A stretch of 64,000 nt of DNA, taken from the NCBI RefSeq assembly GCF_001304615.2, contig NZ_CP032683.1, positions 2,480,001 through 2,544,000 of the forward strand. Reading direction: 5' to 3'. The stretch is from Methanosarcina flavescens (GTDB lineage Archaea; Halobacteriota; Methanosarcinia; Methanosarcinales; Methanosarcinaceae). A program made the position numbers and the translations under genes. Shown here one piece after another: positions 54,319 to 63,279 of this stretch (the stretch's first letter is position 1; every line of letters starts with the position of its first letter). The notes under the pieces are model-generated. The model did no database searches, was not told the DNA's origin, and worked only from the letters and a program-made list of their open reading frames with translations.

Positions 54319-54747
54319 TTGATCCGGAGTTACAGTAAAACCGATCTTGAAGAAATGGTGAGAATATGGTATGAGTCTTCTGTTACAGCCCACTCCTTCG
54401 TCCCTGTTTCTTTCTGGGCTTCGCAGAAGAATGCAATGAAGGAGACATACCTTCCACTTGCCGAAAACTTTGTTTTTGAAGAGAATGGGAAGCTCGCAGG
54501 ATTCATTTCCCTTGCTGGAGAAAGAATCTGCGCCCTTTTTATTGCGCCCGAAATGCAGGGCAGAGGGATCGGTAGTGCTCTTCTCGAACATGCAAAAACC
54601 CTGAGAGGTAGGCTCTCCCTTAAAGTCTACAGGGAAAACAAAAGAGCTTTCTGCTTTTATAAGAAGTGTGGGTTTATGGCAACCGGCGAAGAGGTCGATG
54701 AGTATACGGGCTGCGTGCAGATTTTGATGGAATGGAAAGAAAGATAA
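54319..54747 (+). CDS. GNAT N-acetyltransferase
   Basis: A 142-residue GNAT-fold acetyltransferase of the RimI/putative-acetyltransferase type. The N-terminal LIRSYSKTDLEEMVRIWYES begins with TTG as start codon and is followed by GKLAGFISLAGERICALFI; the acetyl-CoA loop is APEMQGRGIGSALLEHAKTL, and the C-terminal RENKRAFCFYKKCGFMATGE is typical. Substrate is unknown; it may acetylate a small molecule or protein. GGAAAC lies about eight bases before the TTG. The restriction locus starts 225 bases downstream, and in between a degenerate TTCTTAGTAAA-type repeat occurs (54795-54880). Confidence 0.9.
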   Translation: MIRSYSKTDLEEMVRIWYESSVTAHSFVPVSFWASQKNAMKETYLPLAENFVFEENGKLAGFISLAGERICALFIAPEMQGRGIGSALLEHAKTLRGRLSLKVYRENKRAFCFYKKCGFMATGEEVDEYTGCVQILMEWKER

Positions 54748-54972: not shown

Positions 54973-56547
54973 ATGGCAAAGAGTACAGCAGGCTCGAATG
55001 GAAATGGCGCAAATTTAGGTTTTGAAGAAAAGCTTTGGCAGGCAGCGGACAAGCTCCGAAACAATATGGATGCAGCAGAGTATAAACATGTGGTACTTGG
55101 CCTAATTTTCCTGAAATACATCTCGGATGCTTTTGAGGAAATGCACGAAAAACTTCTATCGGAAGTTGACGAGGGGGCTGATCCAGAAGATCCCGAGGAA
55201 TATCTTGCAGAAAATATCTTCTGGGTGCCTCCTGAAGCCCGCTGGAGCTACCTGGAGAGAAGTGCAAAGCAGCCCACTATCGGAAAGATAATAGATGATG
55301 CCATGACTGCAATTGAGCGGGATAATAGTACCCTCAAGGGCGTGCTCCCAAAAAACTATTCACGGGAAGGACTTGACAAGCAGCGCCTGGGTGAACTGAT
55401 CGACCTTGTTGGCACAATCGGCCTTGGGGACAAGGAGAGCCGCAGTAAAGATGTCCTCGGCAGGGTCTATGAGTATTTCCTTGGCAGATTTGCAGATGCG
55501 GAGGGAAAGCGCGGTGGCCAGTTCTATACCCCGAGAAGTATAGTCAAGGTGCTTGTCGAGATGATTGAACCCTATAGAGGCCGAATTTACGACCCCTGCT
55601 GCGGTTCTGGCGGAATGTTTGTCCAGAGCGAAAAATTCATTGAAGCCCATAACGGCCGCATTGAAAATATCTCTATTTTTGGCCAGGAATCAAACCAGAC
55701 AACCTGGCGCCTCTGCAAAATGAATCTTGCAATCCGGGGCATAGACAACGACGGCATTAAATGGGGCGATTCCTTTCATAATGACCTGCACAAAGATTTG
55801 AAAGCCGATTTCATTCTTTCGAATCCTCCTTTTAACGATTCGGACTGGAATGGCGAACTTCTTTCCGAGGACGTCCGCTGGAAATTTGGAGTCCCGCCTA
55901 AAGGCAACGCCAACTTCGCATGGGTTCAGCATTACATTCACCATCTTTCCCCGTCCGGAATTGCAGGCTTTGTCCTTGCGAACGGCTCCATGTCCTCAAA
56001 TACCTCAGGCGAAGGTGAAATCCGGAGAAAGATCATTGAAGCTGACCTCGTTGACTGCATGATTGCGCTCCCAGGCCATCTTTTTTACAATACTGGAATT
56101 CCAGCCTGCCTCTGGTTCATTGCCCGGGACAAGCGGAACAGCGGCTTCCGTGACCGGCGCGGCGAAGTTCTCTTTATCGATGCCCGGAACATGGGAGTTC
56201 TGCGGGACCGCACACACCGCGAGCTTACCGACGAAGAAATTCAGAGGATTGCTGATACCTACCATGCCTGGCGCGGGGAAAAAGTTGAAAGCGGGAAGAC
56301 CGGGAGCGGGAAATATGAAGATGTTCCCGGCTTCTGTAAGGCTGCAACTCTTGATGAAATAAAGAAGCACGATTTTATCCTGACTCCTGGCCGTTATGTG
56401 GGTTTTGAAGAAACCGAAGACGATGACGAGGAATTTGAAGAGAAAATGGAAAGGCTGATTGCTGAACTTTCGGAGCAGTTCAGGAAATCGGAGGAGCTGG
56501 AGAAGAAGATCAGGGAAAATCTGGCGGGGTTAGGGTATGAACTCTAA
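54973..56547 (+). CDS. hsdM: Type I restriction-modification methyltransferase subunit
   Basis: A 524-residue HsdM, the modification subunit that methylates adenine with SAM in the HsdM2S core. The N-terminal helical HsdM_N domain ([20 protein letters not shown], then [15 protein letters not shown]) leads to the methylase domain with [16 protein letters not shown], motif [11 protein letters not shown], and the N6-adenine motif [28 protein letters not shown] and [14 protein letters not shown] are further family blocks. It is followed by gene X, hsdS, a small heat-shock gene on the other strand, and hsdR. The methylase is intact. Confidence 0.96.
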
Positions 56548-56736
56548 TCTCAAGTTAGTAGAATCTGAAACTAGAATCTGAAACCCTTGAGCTGTTAAAG
56601 GTTCCCACTAAAGGCTCCCACTGAAAGTAAAGAACAACTAAACTTACGAACGAAGCTCAAAAACTAAGTTTAAACATATGCTGCTACAATGAATATTAAG
56701 AAAAATATAAAATTATAGATAAACGGAGGGCATGCC

Positions 56737-57702
56737 ATGAGTCCTGATACTGGGAACAAATTTACTGAAGGGGGAGACGACTCGCTTTCCCGATATCTGA
56801 AACCCGATTCTCCGGAAATAAAGGAAATTAAAAGCCTGCAAGGAAAGGAGTACGAATACAGTGATTATCTGGGAACAATTGAGTATTCGATTGCAAGGTA
56901 TTTTTATGAAAATGACCGGGGAATTAAGGACAAAGACGCAGTAGCAGCATTAAATAACATCAAAAATAACTACGATAAAAAAATCTCTTTCTTTGAACAG
57001 GACCTTGAGATAGAAATAATTGAAAACCTGATAGAGCTTCTTGAAGATGAACCAATAAGCCATCACGAGTTCAAACTGGCAATTGACTACGTTCTGGAAG
57101 TTATTGACAACAGGTCGTGGATGGAAGACGATCAGGCGTACCTGAAGTGGGCTGCTTATGTTATGGGGCTTTTCACTGAAAAAGAAAGGGAAGAGTACGA
57201 AACAGAAATCAGAAAGCTTGCTGCCAGAATGGGTTTTTCCAGCAAACACGCAGACCTCATGCTAATGAAAGGGGAGGAGGAAGATTATTTCGAATTTGTA
57301 GAAAACTACGGAGCAGAGGGCACAGAAGAACTAACTGATGAGGAACTGATAGCCGAAATGGAGAAAAGGTTCCTCTCAATGCCAGAGGACGAAAAATTTG
57401 ATTTCCTGCTGGAAAACGGCCCCGAATTCTATGAACTCGTGGGTCTCTATCTCTCAGACCTGTCCGAAAGAGGCGAATTTGATAAAATCCAGACCCTGTA
57501 CAGAAAGCTTACTGAAAAATACGATGATTTCCTCTACCTGTATGTTTACATGGGAGGAGTCTATCTTGAAAAAGACCCTTCCCTTGCTAAGTCCTACTTC
57601 GAAAAAGCTCTGGAAACTCTGGACAGAACCGATGAACTTTCGGACTCTACCAGAGAAGTATTAAGAGCTCAGTTCCTCAATCTAATAAAAAAATTAAAAT
57701 AA
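56737..57702 (+). CDS. Gene X: helical TPR-like protein within the restriction locus
   Basis: A 321-residue acidic soluble protein between hsdM and hsdS. GGAGG lies before the ATG. The first 200 residues are helical without a recognised domain (YEYSDYLGTIEYSIARYFYE; NDRSWMEDDQ-like stretch NRSWMEDDQAYLKWAAYVMG). The last 110 residues look like TPR repeats: RGEFDKIQTLYRKLTEKYDD, then YVYMGGVYLEKDPSLAKSYF followed by EKALETLD. It has no methylase, specificity or helicase motif, so it is an accessory protein; it could regulate or bind the restriction complex or be an unrelated passenger. Other type I loci contain accessory genes of unrelated sequence at this place. Confidence 0.8.
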   Translation: MSPDTGNKFTEGGDDSLSRYLKPDSPEIKEIKSLQGKEYEYSDYLGTIEYSIARYFYENDRGIKDKDAVAALNNIKNNYDKKISFFEQDLEIEIIENLIELLEDEPISHHEFKLAIDYVLEVIDNRSWMEDDQAYLKWAAYVMGLFTEKEREEYETEIRKLAARMGFSSKHADLMLMKGEEEDYFEFVENYGAEGTEELTDEELIAEMEKRFLSMPEDEKFDFLLENGPEFYELVGLYLSDLSERGEFDKIQTLYRKLTEKYDDFLYLYVYMGGVYLEKDPSLAKSYFEKALETLDRTDELSDSTREVLRAQFLNLIKKLK

Positions 57703-57961: not shown

Positions 57962-59254
57962 TTGGCCTCTGAAACAAAATTCAAAAAAACCGAGATTGGA
58001 ATGATTCCTGAAGATTGGAATATCTTAACCTTAGAAAACGCTATGGAATCTATCATTGATTATAGGGGGAAAACCCCAAAAAAGACAGATTCTGGAATTC
58101 CCCTAATTACAGCAAAAATTGTCAAGAATGGAAGAATTCTTGAACCTAATGAGTTTATTTCTCCACAAGATTATGAAAGCTGGATGCGAAGAGGGTTGCC
58201 GAAGCCTGGTGATGTTGTAATTACTACGGAAGCACCTATGGGAGAAGTTGCCCAATTAGATGAGAGAAAAGTTGCGTTGGCTCAAAGACTTATTACCCTG
58301 AGAGGAAAAAAGGGAATGCTGCATAATAATTTCCTAAGATTTGTTTTGCAGTCTCCAAATGTAGAAAATGAACTAAAAAAGAGAGAGTCAGGTACTACTG
58401 TTACGGGTATAAAACAGAAAGAACTTAGAAAAGCCTTACTTCCGATTCCACCATATGATGAACAAATAAAATTATCTGAAATCTTGATAAGTCTTGATAA
58501 TAAAATCGACCTCAACCGCCAGATGAACTCCACCTTAGAACAAATCGCCCAAACCCTCTTCAAACGCTGGTTTATCGATTTCGAGTTCCCGGATGAAAAT
58601 GGAAACCCTTACAAATCAAGCGGCGGCAGGGTGGTAAATTCGGAATTGGGGGAGATCCCTGAGGGGTGGAAAGTTAAGCAGATCGGTGACATTTGCGAGA
58701 CCTTTGGAGGGGGAACTCCGAAAACCAGCGAACCTTCTTACTGGGAAGGAGGAGATGTTTTTTGGGCAACACCTACTGATATGACATCTCTTAATTCACC
58801 GGTTATTTTTGATACTTCAAGGAAAATCACAGAAAAAGGGCTTCTAAATAGTTCTGCTAAACTACTTCCACCAGGCTCTATTCTGATGACAAGCAGAGCA
58901 ACTCTGGGTTATTTTGCCATCACAAAAGTTCCAATTTCCACTAATCAGGGATTTATTTCTATGGTCTGTGATGACAGAGTTTCCAATTATTATCTTTTAA
59001 ACGCGGTTAAAAATAATATGGAAGAAATTGAGAATTTGGCTGGTGGCAGTACTTTTCTTGAAATTAATAAAACCTCTTTCAGATCCATAAAAATAATTTT
59101 GCCACCTAAAAATATAATGGATAAATTCGATGAAAATGCAGATTTTATTTATGAGAAAATATTTCATAATGAGTTAGAAATAAAAAGACTTGCTGAAATT
59201 CGCGATTCCCTCCTTCCAAAACTCATGTCAGGGAAAATTCGTGTTCAGGTTTGA
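57962..59254 (+). CDS. hsdS: Type I restriction-modification specificity subunit
   Basis: A 430-residue HsdS with two target recognition domains, each binding one half of a bipartite site. TRD1 starts EIGMIPEDWNILTLENAMES and TRD2 starts GEIPEGWKVKQIGDICETFG. The first is followed by the central conserved region SLDNKIDLNRQMNSTLEQIA with QTLFKRWFIDFEFP, and the second by its counterpart FHNELEIKRLAEIRDSLLPK. Both spacer helices are intact. The start is TTG with GAGGAAAA about seven bases before it. The hairpin at 57806 lies upstream. It is complete, so a sequence-specific core enzyme can form with HsdM. Confidence 0.95.
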   Translation: MASETKFKKTEIGMIPEDWNILTLENAMESIIDYRGKTPKKTDSGIPLITAKIVKNGRILEPNEFISPQDYESWMRRGLPKPGDVVITTEAPMGEVAQLDERKVALAQRLITLRGKKGMLHNNFLRFVLQSPNVENELKKRESGTTVTGIKQKELRKALLPIPPYDEQIKLSEILISLDNKIDLNRQMNSTLEQIAQTLFKRWFIDFEFPDENGNPYKSSGGRVVNSELGEIPEGWKVKQIGDICETFGGGTPKTSEPSYWEGGDVFWATPTDMTSLNSPVIFDTSRKITEKGLLNSSAKLLPPGSILMTSRATLGYFAITKVPISTNQGFISMVCDDRVSNYYLLNAVKNNMEEIENLAGGSTFLEINKTSFRSIKIILPPKNIMDKFDENADFIYEKIFHNELEIKRLAEIRDSLLPKLMSGKIRVQV

Positions 59255-59499: not shown

Positions 59500-59799
59500 T
59501 TACTCGATTTTCACATCAACTAATTTCTCTAAAGGCTTTTGATAAGGTACAGTGACTTTAAGTATACCGTTTGAGTACTTAGCTGTCGCTTTTTCCGGTT
59601 CTACCGGGCAGTCGGTTGGATAGCTGTCCAGATACGTAACTCCTTCTTTTTTACCGCTCACATAAAAGCTGTCACTTGTAAGCTTGAAAGAAACGTCTTT
59701 CTTTTCTACTCCCGGAAGGATTACTTCGATCAGGAGGTTTTCGTATTTGTCATCAGGAAATACACTAATTACTGGTGATAGTCTTAATGTTTCCGCCAT
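59500..59799 (-). CDS. Hsp20-family small heat-shock-like protein
   Basis: A 99-residue alpha-crystallin-fold protein. The beta-sandwich is visible: NLLIEVILPGVEKKDVSFKL, then TSDSFYVSGKKEG, and the C-terminal ATAKYSNGILKVTVPYQKPL. The IxI/V-type motif near the end is weak. Small heat-shock proteins hold unfolding proteins; this one is short and lacks a long N-terminal arm. ATG at 59799 is chosen because GGGGTAAT precedes it by four bases. It lies on the minus strand, between hsdS and hsdR. A second sHSP gene begins at 63907. Confidence 0.88.
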   Translation of the reverse strand: MAETLRLSPVISVFPDDKYENLLIEVILPGVEKKDVSFKLTSDSFYVSGKKEGVTYLDSYPTDCPVEPEKATAKYSNGILKVTVPYQKPLEKLVDVKIE

Positions 59800-60114
59800 A
59801 ATATTACCCCAAAGTAATGTCATATATTAAGATATTTATACATTTTCATTGACATGATGATTTCGTCAACCTTGTGGCAGGGTTGTTTATTAACAGGTTC
59901 CCAGGCAAGATATAATTCGTTAACAAAATAGCTACTCTTAAATAAATTTACTGAAATACACAATACTAATTTTTATTCCCTTGCTTTAATGAGTAAAGCT
60001 ATTTTTTAAAAGAAACTCTGCCCCATAAAAGAAAATCCAGACAAGTCTGACAAAAAAGAAACAGAAAAAAAGAAAACAGACAAAAAAACAGAAAAAAAGA
60101 AAGGAGAAATACTT

Positions 60115-63100
60115 ATTCCCGCCTTCATCCCCGAATCCGAAGTTGAAGAAGCAGCCCTTGAAATTCTTTCCGAGCTTGGCTATGATTACCTTTACGGTCC
60201 GGATATTGCGCCGGAAACGGAAGGTGCCGAGAGGAAGGATTTAGGAACCGTTATTCTGCCGCGCCGGCTTCGGGCTGCTGTTGACAGGCTGAATCCCGGA
60301 GTTCCGGCAGGAGCAAGGGAAGAAGCAGTAAAAAAGGTGCTTCGGGCTGAAAGCCAGGATCTCGTGCACAATAACCGGGCTTTTCACAGTATGCTGGTAA
60401 ACGGGGTTGATGTGGAGTATCAGGGTCAGGACGGGGAAACGGTTTATGATAAGGTCTGGCTTTTTGACTTTGCGGAACCTGCGAAAAATGTATTTCTTGC
60501 GGTCAACCAGTTTACCGTTATAGAAGATGGAAACAAAAGGCGGCCGGACATTATACTTTTTGTTAACGGGCTTCCACTTGTTGTTATTGAGTTAAAACGA
60601 CCGGACGAAGATACCAGGTTTGAAGATGACGAGATTATCTGGGATGCTTATAAGCAGCTCCAGACCTACAAGAGAGAAATTCCCGGACTTTTCCGGTATA
60701 ATGCTTTCCTGCTGATAAGTGACGGGCAGGATGCAATGGCAGGGACAATTACCTCGAACAGGGAGTGGTTTGTACCCTGGAAAACAATTGACGGGAAGAA
60801 AATCGCAGATTTTAAGATTCCGCCTATGGAGGTGCTGCTCAGGGGGATGTGCAAGCCTGAAATCCTTCTCGACCTTATCAGGCACTTTATTGTTTTTGAA
60901 GATGACCATGGAAAGGTTATCAAGAAGCTTGCCAGGTATCACCAGTACCATGCAGTTAACAGGGCTGTAGAGAAAACAAAACTTGCCTGCATGCCAGAAG
61001 GGGATAGGAAGTGCGGGGTTGTCTGGCATACACAGGGCTCAGGAAAAAGTCTCTCAATGGTCTTTTATGCGGGGAAGCTTGCACTTGAGCTTGACAATCC
61101 TACAATTGTCGTGCTTACTGACAGAAACGACCTTGACGGGCAGCTTTTTGACAACTTTGCCCGATGCAGTGAAATTTTGCGCCAGCAGCCCGTGCAGGCA
61201 GAAACGAGGGCTCATCTGAGGGAGCTTCTCTCAGTTGCCTCGGGTGGGATAGTATTTACAACAATTCAGAAATTCTCGCCCGAAGATGAGGAAGATAAGT
61301 TCCCTATCCTATCCGAAAGGAGAAACATCATCGTAATTGCTGACGAAGCTCACCGCAGCCAGTACGGTTTTGATGCAAAATTCCGGGAAAGGGAGGTTGA
61401 AGGCGAAAAGGTTGCAGAGATCTCCTACGGCTTTGCAAAGCACATGCGGGATGCCCTACCAAATGCATCTTTTATCGGATTTACCGGCACGCCCATTGAA
61501 CTCAATGACAGGAGCACGCCTGCGGTTTTTGGGGATTATATCGATATTTACGACATTGAACAGTCTGTAAACGATGGCGTCACAGTGCGGATCTTCTATG
61601 AGAGCCGCCTTTCGAAGCTCGATCTGGTTAAAGAAGCCAGGGAGACACTGGATGCTGATTTTTCACAGATAACCAGAGATTGGGATTTATATGAGGCAGA
61701 AAAACTTAAGTCTCGCTGGTCGCGGCTTGAAGCCGTGATAGGGAGTAAAGATAACCTGAAAAAACTTGCAGCTGACATTGTGTCCCATTTCGAAAAAAGA
61801 CTTGAAGATGCTATGGACGGCAAAGGTATGATTATCTGCATGACCAGGCAGATGTGTGTCGATCTTTACAATGAGATCATAGCCCTTCGCCCGGAATGGC
61901 ATGATGATGACGACCTGAGAGGCCAGATAAAAGTGATTATGACCGGCAGTGCAGCCGATGACGAACCTCTACAGCCTCATATTCGGAACAAAGGCCGCAG
62001 AATGAAGATCCGGGACAGAATGCAGGATCCGAACGATCCACTGAAACTCGTTATAGTCTGTGATATGTGGCTTACCGGCTTCGACGCTCCCTGCCTGCAC
62101 ACCATGTATTTCCTGAAATGGCTTCAGGGGCATAATCTCATGCAGGCGATAGCCCGTGTAAACCGTGTTTTCAGGGATAAGCCTGGAGGGCTTATTGTTG
62201 ATTATGTGGGCCTTCTTTATGACCTGAAGTATGCTATGGCAAACTATACTCGCAACGGAGGCCGGGGCAATCCAGCGGATTATAAGGACCAGGCTGTTGC
62301 ATTAATGCTCGAAAAATACGAGATTGTTCGGGATCTTTTCTATGGTTTTGACTACATGCGAATCTTTTCTGCTTCTCCAAAGGAAAAGCTGGGAATTGTT
62401 AGGGAAGGAGCGGATTTCATTCTTTCATTGGGGCGTACCGAAGATGAGAGAGCTCAGGAAAAAAAGCGTCTAATTCAGCATGTAACCGAGCTTTCCAAAG
62501 CTTTTGCACTTTCGGTGCCAGATCCTGAGGCCGAGAAGATCAGGGATGAGCTTGCATACTTCCAGGCCGTAAAGGCAATTCTTGTAAAGCTGGAAAGGAG
62601 ACCCGCAAAATCAAAGTATGAGATGAATTCGGCAATAAAAGAACTTGTATCGAAATCGATTGCAACCGAGGAGATAATCGATGTTTTTGATGCGGTTGGA
62701 ATAAATAAACCGGAGATTTCAATCCTTTCAGAAGAATTCCTTGCTGAAGTCCGTGATCTGCCGCAAAAGAATCTTGCTTATGAAGTCCTGAAAAAACTGC
62801 TTTACGACGAGATAAAGACCAGATCTCGCAGAAATTTGATTCAGGGTAAATCTTTTGCCGAAATGCTTGAGCAGGCAATAAATAAATATAAGAGCCGGGG
62901 AATTGACACCTTGCAGGTTATAGAAGAACTCCTTGCGCTTGCAAAGAAGATCAGTGACGCTGATAAAAGAGGCGAAGGACTTGGCCTGAGTGATGAAGAA
63001 ATTGCTTTTTATGATGCTCTAGCTGACAATGAAAGTGCTCTGGAAATCCTCGGCAATGAGACATTAAGGCTCATGGCATCGGAGCTTGTCAGGATTATAA

Positions 63101-63279
63101 GGCAAAACGCAGGCGTTGATTGGACTCTTCGGAAGAATATCCAGGCAAAAATAAAGGTCAGTGTGAAACGACTTCTAAAGAAGTACGGATATCCTCCAGA
63201 CAAACAGAAACTTGCTACTGAGAATATCCTAAAGCAGGCTGAACTTCTGTGCAGAGATGCCGGATTTTCCGCAGCATAA
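60115..63279 (+). CDS. hsdR: Type I restriction endonuclease subunit, unclear start
   Basis: The ATP-dependent translocase and nuclease of the type I system, at least 980 residues and about 1054 if the conserved N-terminus is included. The nuclease PD-(D/E)xK site is [20 protein letters not shown]. The SF2 helicase part has Walker [18 protein letters not shown] in [14 protein letters not shown] and GFTGTPIE. The frame is open from 60010 and carries conserved sequence ([20 protein letters not shown]) before the first GTG at 60337, yet no ATG, GTG or TTG lies in frame there. The ATT at 60115 stands eight bases after AGGAG and is taken here provisionally. An ATG at 59989 is followed in frame by TAA at 60007. 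Confidence 0.9.

Follow-up and report, generated by a model that had tools for sequence, protein, structure and literature searches.

A two-domain protein carried behind the methylase genes of type I restriction and BREX loci, a candidate accessory defence module of Methanosarcinaceae

INTRODUCTION

In the window (the whole 64-kb stretch of DNA analysed here), gene X (56737..57702, + strand; 321 residues) lies between hsdM and hsdS of a type I restriction locus, and its relatives were found behind the methylase genes of type I restriction loci and of BREX loci. The evidence speaks against a restriction subunit and equally against a passenger placed at random. We give about even chances to the reading that it is a self-sufficient accessory module, probably a back-up antiviral one, occupying a slot behind defence methylases.

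Few archaeal defences are known beyond CRISPR and restriction, according to passages of an archaeal survey that also emphasize single-gene candidates found by embedding (PMC12988326), and type I systems are described as abundant in Methanosarcina in a section of PMC10609329. Our literature searches returned no paper on X.

RESULTS

Gene X and its locus

Upstream of X lies hsdM (54973..56547, +), which encodes the N6-adenine methylase subunit (PF02384, 1e-114; PF12161). Downstream come hsdS for the specificity subunit (57962..59254, +; TTG start, PF01420) and then hsdR (60337..63279, +, as listed from a GTG). X starts with ATG, and its ribosome-binding site, cggagg, lies at 56724-56729, in agreement with the first-pass annotation, which had placed the gene between hsdM and hsdS with a good site of its own. 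This motif belongs to 85 conserved bases upstream of X (56652..56736, +) that are kept also in relatives without an intact hsdM in view and that presumably contain a promoter of X itself. Among six relatives, four of which had no intact hsdM in view, the 85 bases differed by 2-12%, and dS was 0.12-0.32 in the seven pairs of these relatives for which it was computed.

A GNAT gene (54319..54747, +) marks the left edge of a variable site that is without X and hsd genes in L120, L121 and L122. An Hsp20-like gene lies between hsdS and hsdR (59500..59823, −); L041 and L042, in which neither hsdS nor hsdR was seen, retain it next to X. Within 60061-60337, both the open hsdR frame and its homology extend back to about 60115, upstream of the listed GTG. 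The window has no ATG, GTG or TTG where L044 has an ATG, and the same is true of L038; both an unusual start codon and a shortened HsdR are possible.

Predicted build of the protein

The AlphaFold model of X (mean pLDDT 83) consists of two parts. The N-terminal part, the hallmark of the family (about residues 13-185; 56773..57291, +; defined by alignments and the model), is all helix over residues 15-185 and reached a pTM of 0.82 when folded alone. A low-confidence acidic linker, whose length differs among relatives (residues 186-206; 57292..57354, +; from alignments, the model and charge computation), joins it to a C-terminal TPR domain assigned from the predicted fold (residues 207-321; 57355..57699, +). 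The N-terminal core carries the motif IDNRSW..D.QAY.KW at residues 123-138; in an alignment of 16 diverse members W128, A134 and K137 were invariant, and N125, R126, S127, Y135 and W138 almost so. This domain stands alone as a protein of 177-178 residues in L060, L087 and L089.

The TPR-like helices previously noticed at the end of X were recovered in the model, where residues 198-321 superposed on TPR chains with Z 8-10, although helical repeats readily yield middling Z values. Antiparallel helix-pair repeats were present in this part of the predicted fold only, and the N-terminal domain is not TPR. No TPR sequence model exceeded its cut-off in X (Sel1, 17.6 of 30.7 bits; TPR_14, 12.2 of 23.5 bits); the TPR reading of the C-terminus agrees with these sub-threshold repeat matches.

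X matched no Pfam or NCBIfam model at its cut-off and no methylase, specificity or translocase family, consistent with the earlier statement that motifs of methylation, recognition and translocation are lacking. The TPR domain was the only one recognized; motif and fold comparisons pointed to neither a nuclease nor a toxin nor any other effector. Known and candidate (PDC) families of PADLOC gave no fitting profile: the best E value was 0.012 (JetB, 1 of 16 members), and JetB and JukB each matched a single member at 0.01-0.02. The best E values in a PDB sequence profile search and in PHROGs were 0.25 and 0.006, the latter for a family of unknown function. With the N-terminal model, Foldseek returned nothing at E ≤ 0.001 from the PDB and viral libraries, and a VIA re-check gave no row at Z ≥ 5; missing matches of this kind do not show the fold to be new. 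A Cas11-like comparison (best 8bmw_E of SsoCsm; Z 4.6, rmsd 3.7, 101 residues aligned) and a Cas11 profile (E 0.36, 1 of 16 members) both remained within chance.

Ocr and ArdA are DNA-mimic antirestriction proteins. X resembles them in being acidic (pI 4.43, net charge −36), a property already read from its sequence, but differs in being chromosomal and in occurring in none of the phage or plasmid records searched. The acidity also varies within the family, from −2.8 to −15.3 net charges per 100 residues in 16 members, and members of one clade, whose C-terminal ends are longer, carry a lysine-rich tail, which makes a DNA-mimic role common to the whole family less likely. DNA mimicry, as had been suggested, found no support beyond the acidity itself.

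Distribution of X

X is nearly confined to Methanosarcinaceae (Methanosarcina and its kin). The genome of the window has one copy, and 26 of 59 near relatives gave a match. Across the class, 45 of 237 genomes had one; 41 belong to its own family and 4, with weak matches only, to another. Of 392 genomes drawn from the phylum, 26 matched (25 of its own family, plus a weak match in G045). Within the genus, X was absent from 7 of 30 genomes, a set that counts the genome of the window and includes some incomplete assemblies. The homologues in the class, together with the substitution ratios described below, indicate that X is a real gene rather than a chance open reading frame. The viral contigs and the plasmid and phage collections searched contained no match, and an origin of X as a phage or plasmid gene was rejected on this basis.

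X recurs behind hsdM

Genes or remnants of hsd or BREX systems occurred in the fetched stretch of 27 of the 48 X loci examined; homologues were therefore not found mainly in unrelated contexts, the outcome that would have marked X as a passenger. The other 21 loci gave no such signal, and some of these (L042, L050, L053, L064, L088 and L095-L097) are close to the end of a contig or to masked sequence. When the 23 hsd-bearing X loci were laid out, an hsdM, either full or as a C-terminal remnant, directly preceded an X in 13 of them, in three genera and at different chromosomal places. Within Methanosarcina, the window, L038 and L044 are the only loci where intact hsdM adjoins X, and hsd remnants or none were seen elsewhere. 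In L039, L040, L041, L043, L047, L049 and L057, X is preceded by the tail end of hsdM, which stops at residue 520-524 of 524. Such an end remnant precedes both X copies of L040 and also an X of L079, from another genus (g21), and these remnants tell of an older hsdM-X order. Two or three X copies accompany one hsdM or hsdM remnants in L044, L043 and L047.

In a further genus (g25), L092 and L093 have the order hsdM-X-AlbA_2/HATPase gene-hsdS; the start of X overlaps the end of hsdM by 11 bases in L092, and hsdM is split across two frames in L093. In L091 of the same genus, X is flanked by remnants of the hsdM C-terminus and of hsdR. X lies ahead of intact hsdM in L078 and L079 (g21). In most Methanosarcina species argJ-CBS-argC and NDT-GNAT precede X, and at the equivalent site of L120, L121 and L122 both X and the hsd genes are missing. 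L119 has a 37-residue hsdS match and no X, and L099 has hsdM without X. The cluster including X was apparently gained at a site that varies between genomes, and X often outlasts the other genes there.

At the same chromosomal site, L118 (G015) has hsdR split into two frames and an hsdS remnant, with hsdM and X gone, and retains genes related to the DUF6884 and HEPN/TPR genes seen at other loci. Mrr lies beside X in L057, and a SIR2-like gene, below cut-off, in L056. Near hsdS, L078:986-3031 encodes a 681-residue protein with HEPN and TPR matches, whose start looks GIY-YIG-like by eye; L044 and L098 have shorter relatives.

X inside BREX operons

The X of L090 (g5) is preceded by the end of a PglX gene (E 4e-54) and followed by PglZ (5e-264) and BrxL. 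Three X stretches lie between PglX pieces and PglZ/BrxL pieces in L082 (g3). The position between pglX and pglZ in these loci indicates that the slot behind the methylase gene is common to two unrelated systems. X was thus repeatedly located inside the operon of another defence system, as embedded accessory defence genes are: type I operons in three genera and BREX in two more. In a quick tree, with several long terminal branches and a root picked by the analyst, the restriction-linked X of g25 grouped with BREX and solitary X, apart from the restriction-linked copies of Methanosarcina and g21 (support 91-93), so that restriction-linked X occurs in separate clades.

The link to defence loci is recurrent but loose

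Although the hsdM-X order, as proposed for checking, recurs in three genera, X adjoins only 7 of 121 class-wide matches to the HsdM of the window (E up to 1e-100). A fourth, essential restriction subunit was rejected as an identity for X on this count; X lacks the domains of the type I core subunits and is not present as a rule in their operons. X was in the operon for 2 of 44 PglZ matches in the class, and PglZ lies 8 kb from X in G173 and 17 kb in G133. In ten related hsdM loci without X (L098-L107), the slot was empty or held PIN_12 nucleases, AlbA_2 genes or unnamed genes; AlbA_2/HATPase genes fill it in some X-free hsdM loci. These varied contents, and the small share of HsdM and PglZ loci with X, fit a cargo slot. 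Type I operons of related archaea also have an embedded OLD-family ATPase with TOPRIM and embedded PIN_12 nucleases (L103:7851-9485; L104:5627-6658; L098:5635-6432).

Among 16 distinct X sites, nine adjoin genes or remnants of hsd or BREX systems, compared with about 1.3% of the genome lying within 5 kb of a PF02384 match; this chance estimate is rough, as the sites were listed manually, the three loci of g25 are perhaps not independent and only the first of the two numbers includes remnants. Together with the BREX embedding and the recurrent hsdM-X order, it led us to reject a purely random passenger.

X is under purifying selection without hsdM

The dN/dS of X was 0.11-0.43 in 27 of 28 pairs; the exception, L085/L086 (0.56), had very few changes and a dS of just 0.017. 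When neither locus had an intact hsdM in view, the ratio was 0.13-0.17 (L040/L041/L042), 0.15 (L058/L059) and 0.11 (L048/L059), and the remaining pairs of this kind reached up to 0.40, barring L085/L086. The low ratios without intact hsdM indicate that X is used independently of the restriction system and is kept after its host system is lost, although purifying selection is evidence of use and not of which use. A special tie to HsdM and HsdS is weakened by selection on X where both genes are gone.

DISCUSSION

We regard the position of X, its recurrence, its predicted two-domain build and its retention after methylase loss as established. The earlier suggestion of an accessory gene, either a regulator or an extra defence module, fits the hsdM-X order in three genera and the presence of X in BREX operons, and is in part supported overall. 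The self-sufficient module is favoured by the BREX embedding, the recurrent hsdM-X order, the separate restriction-linked clades, selection without hsdM, the empty sites, the nuclease and AlbA_2/HATPase genes that fill the slot where X is missing, and the neighbouring defence genes. It is weakened by the lack of a recognized effector motif or fold and of a PADLOC match, by the X loci without hsd or BREX genes, and also by the related hsdM loci that lack X and by L118, where hsdS and hsdR remnants persist but X does not.

From this we infer a back-up antiviral role, which could operate as follows. X, carried directly behind, or sometimes before, an N6-adenine methylase gene, as hsdM-X or pglX-X-pglZ, would benefit from travelling and being expressed with it. 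Its TPR domain may sense or bind a protein partner, of the virus or of the host, and an effector or signalling activity may reside in the N-terminal helical domain. X would then act once the first system has been defeated, in the manner of PARIS, BrxU and PrrC in the same kind of slot.

There are parallels for such an arrangement. PARIS ariAB and BrxU are embedded in BREX between pglX and pglZ, where X also lies in L090 and L082, but X has no nuclease, ATPase or other effector domain that we could find, and it uses type I loci as well. According to passages of PMC11341690, many genomes carry genes between pglZ and pglX, mostly not a known system, and other defence genes occur in this position; nuclease effectors within BREX loci are described in part of PMC12839542. 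The PrrC anticodon nuclease and DarTG2 in the RptR island are, like X, extra genes inside or linked to an hsd operon. In the sections concerned, PMC2610378 describes silencing of PrrC by the linked type I enzyme and PMC12255303 places DarTG2 inside a type I operon. DarTG2 lies between hsdS and hsdR, whereas X lies behind hsdM and has no toxin motif.

In the main rival to a back-up module, X would assist or control the methylase, binding HsdM or PglX and serving as an acidic chaperone, as an assembly factor or as a brake on restriction. The same place behind two kinds of N6-adenine methylase gene, the overlap of hsdM and X in L092 and the strong acidity of X are all consistent with this. We nevertheless consider it unlikely, because few HsdM and PglZ matches have X in their operon, selection persists after methylase loss, two or three X copies can accompany one hsdM or its remnants, and the acidity is not conserved in the family. 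Similarly improbable in our view is a host gene unrelated to defence that happens to lie in a hotspot of recombination, at which restriction genes are gained and lost. The embedding in two unrelated defence operons, the hsdM-X order at different chromosomal places in three genera, the joint absence of X and hsd from the empty site and the genomes of the genus without X all argue against such a gene, even though many X loci have no hsd or BREX genes and the N-domain-only forms of L060 and L087 adjoin ordinary genes. It is very improbable that X belongs to an embedded toxin pair as its immunity or silencing member, with the toxin variable or lost: a small helical domain, retention after neighbour loss and the PIN nucleases and Schlafen-type genes in the same slot would fit, but no constant partner gene adjoins X across loci, the AlbA_2 gene being present in only some.

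A variant to which we give a low probability would make X a methylase-linked immune factor, tied to no single system, that monitors or modulates adenine methylation, for example by responding when the methylase is inhibited. If this is true, one archaeal protein with a new helical domain would guard two unrelated methylation-based defences.

X represents a family without a fitting Pfam, NCBIfam or PADLOC entry that occurs in two kinds of methylation-based defence and persists once these are lost. Some Methanosarcina strains are genetically tractable, making a direct test of X feasible. X is a probable defence gene, marked by its place behind a methylase gene and by its retention after the decay of the surrounding system.
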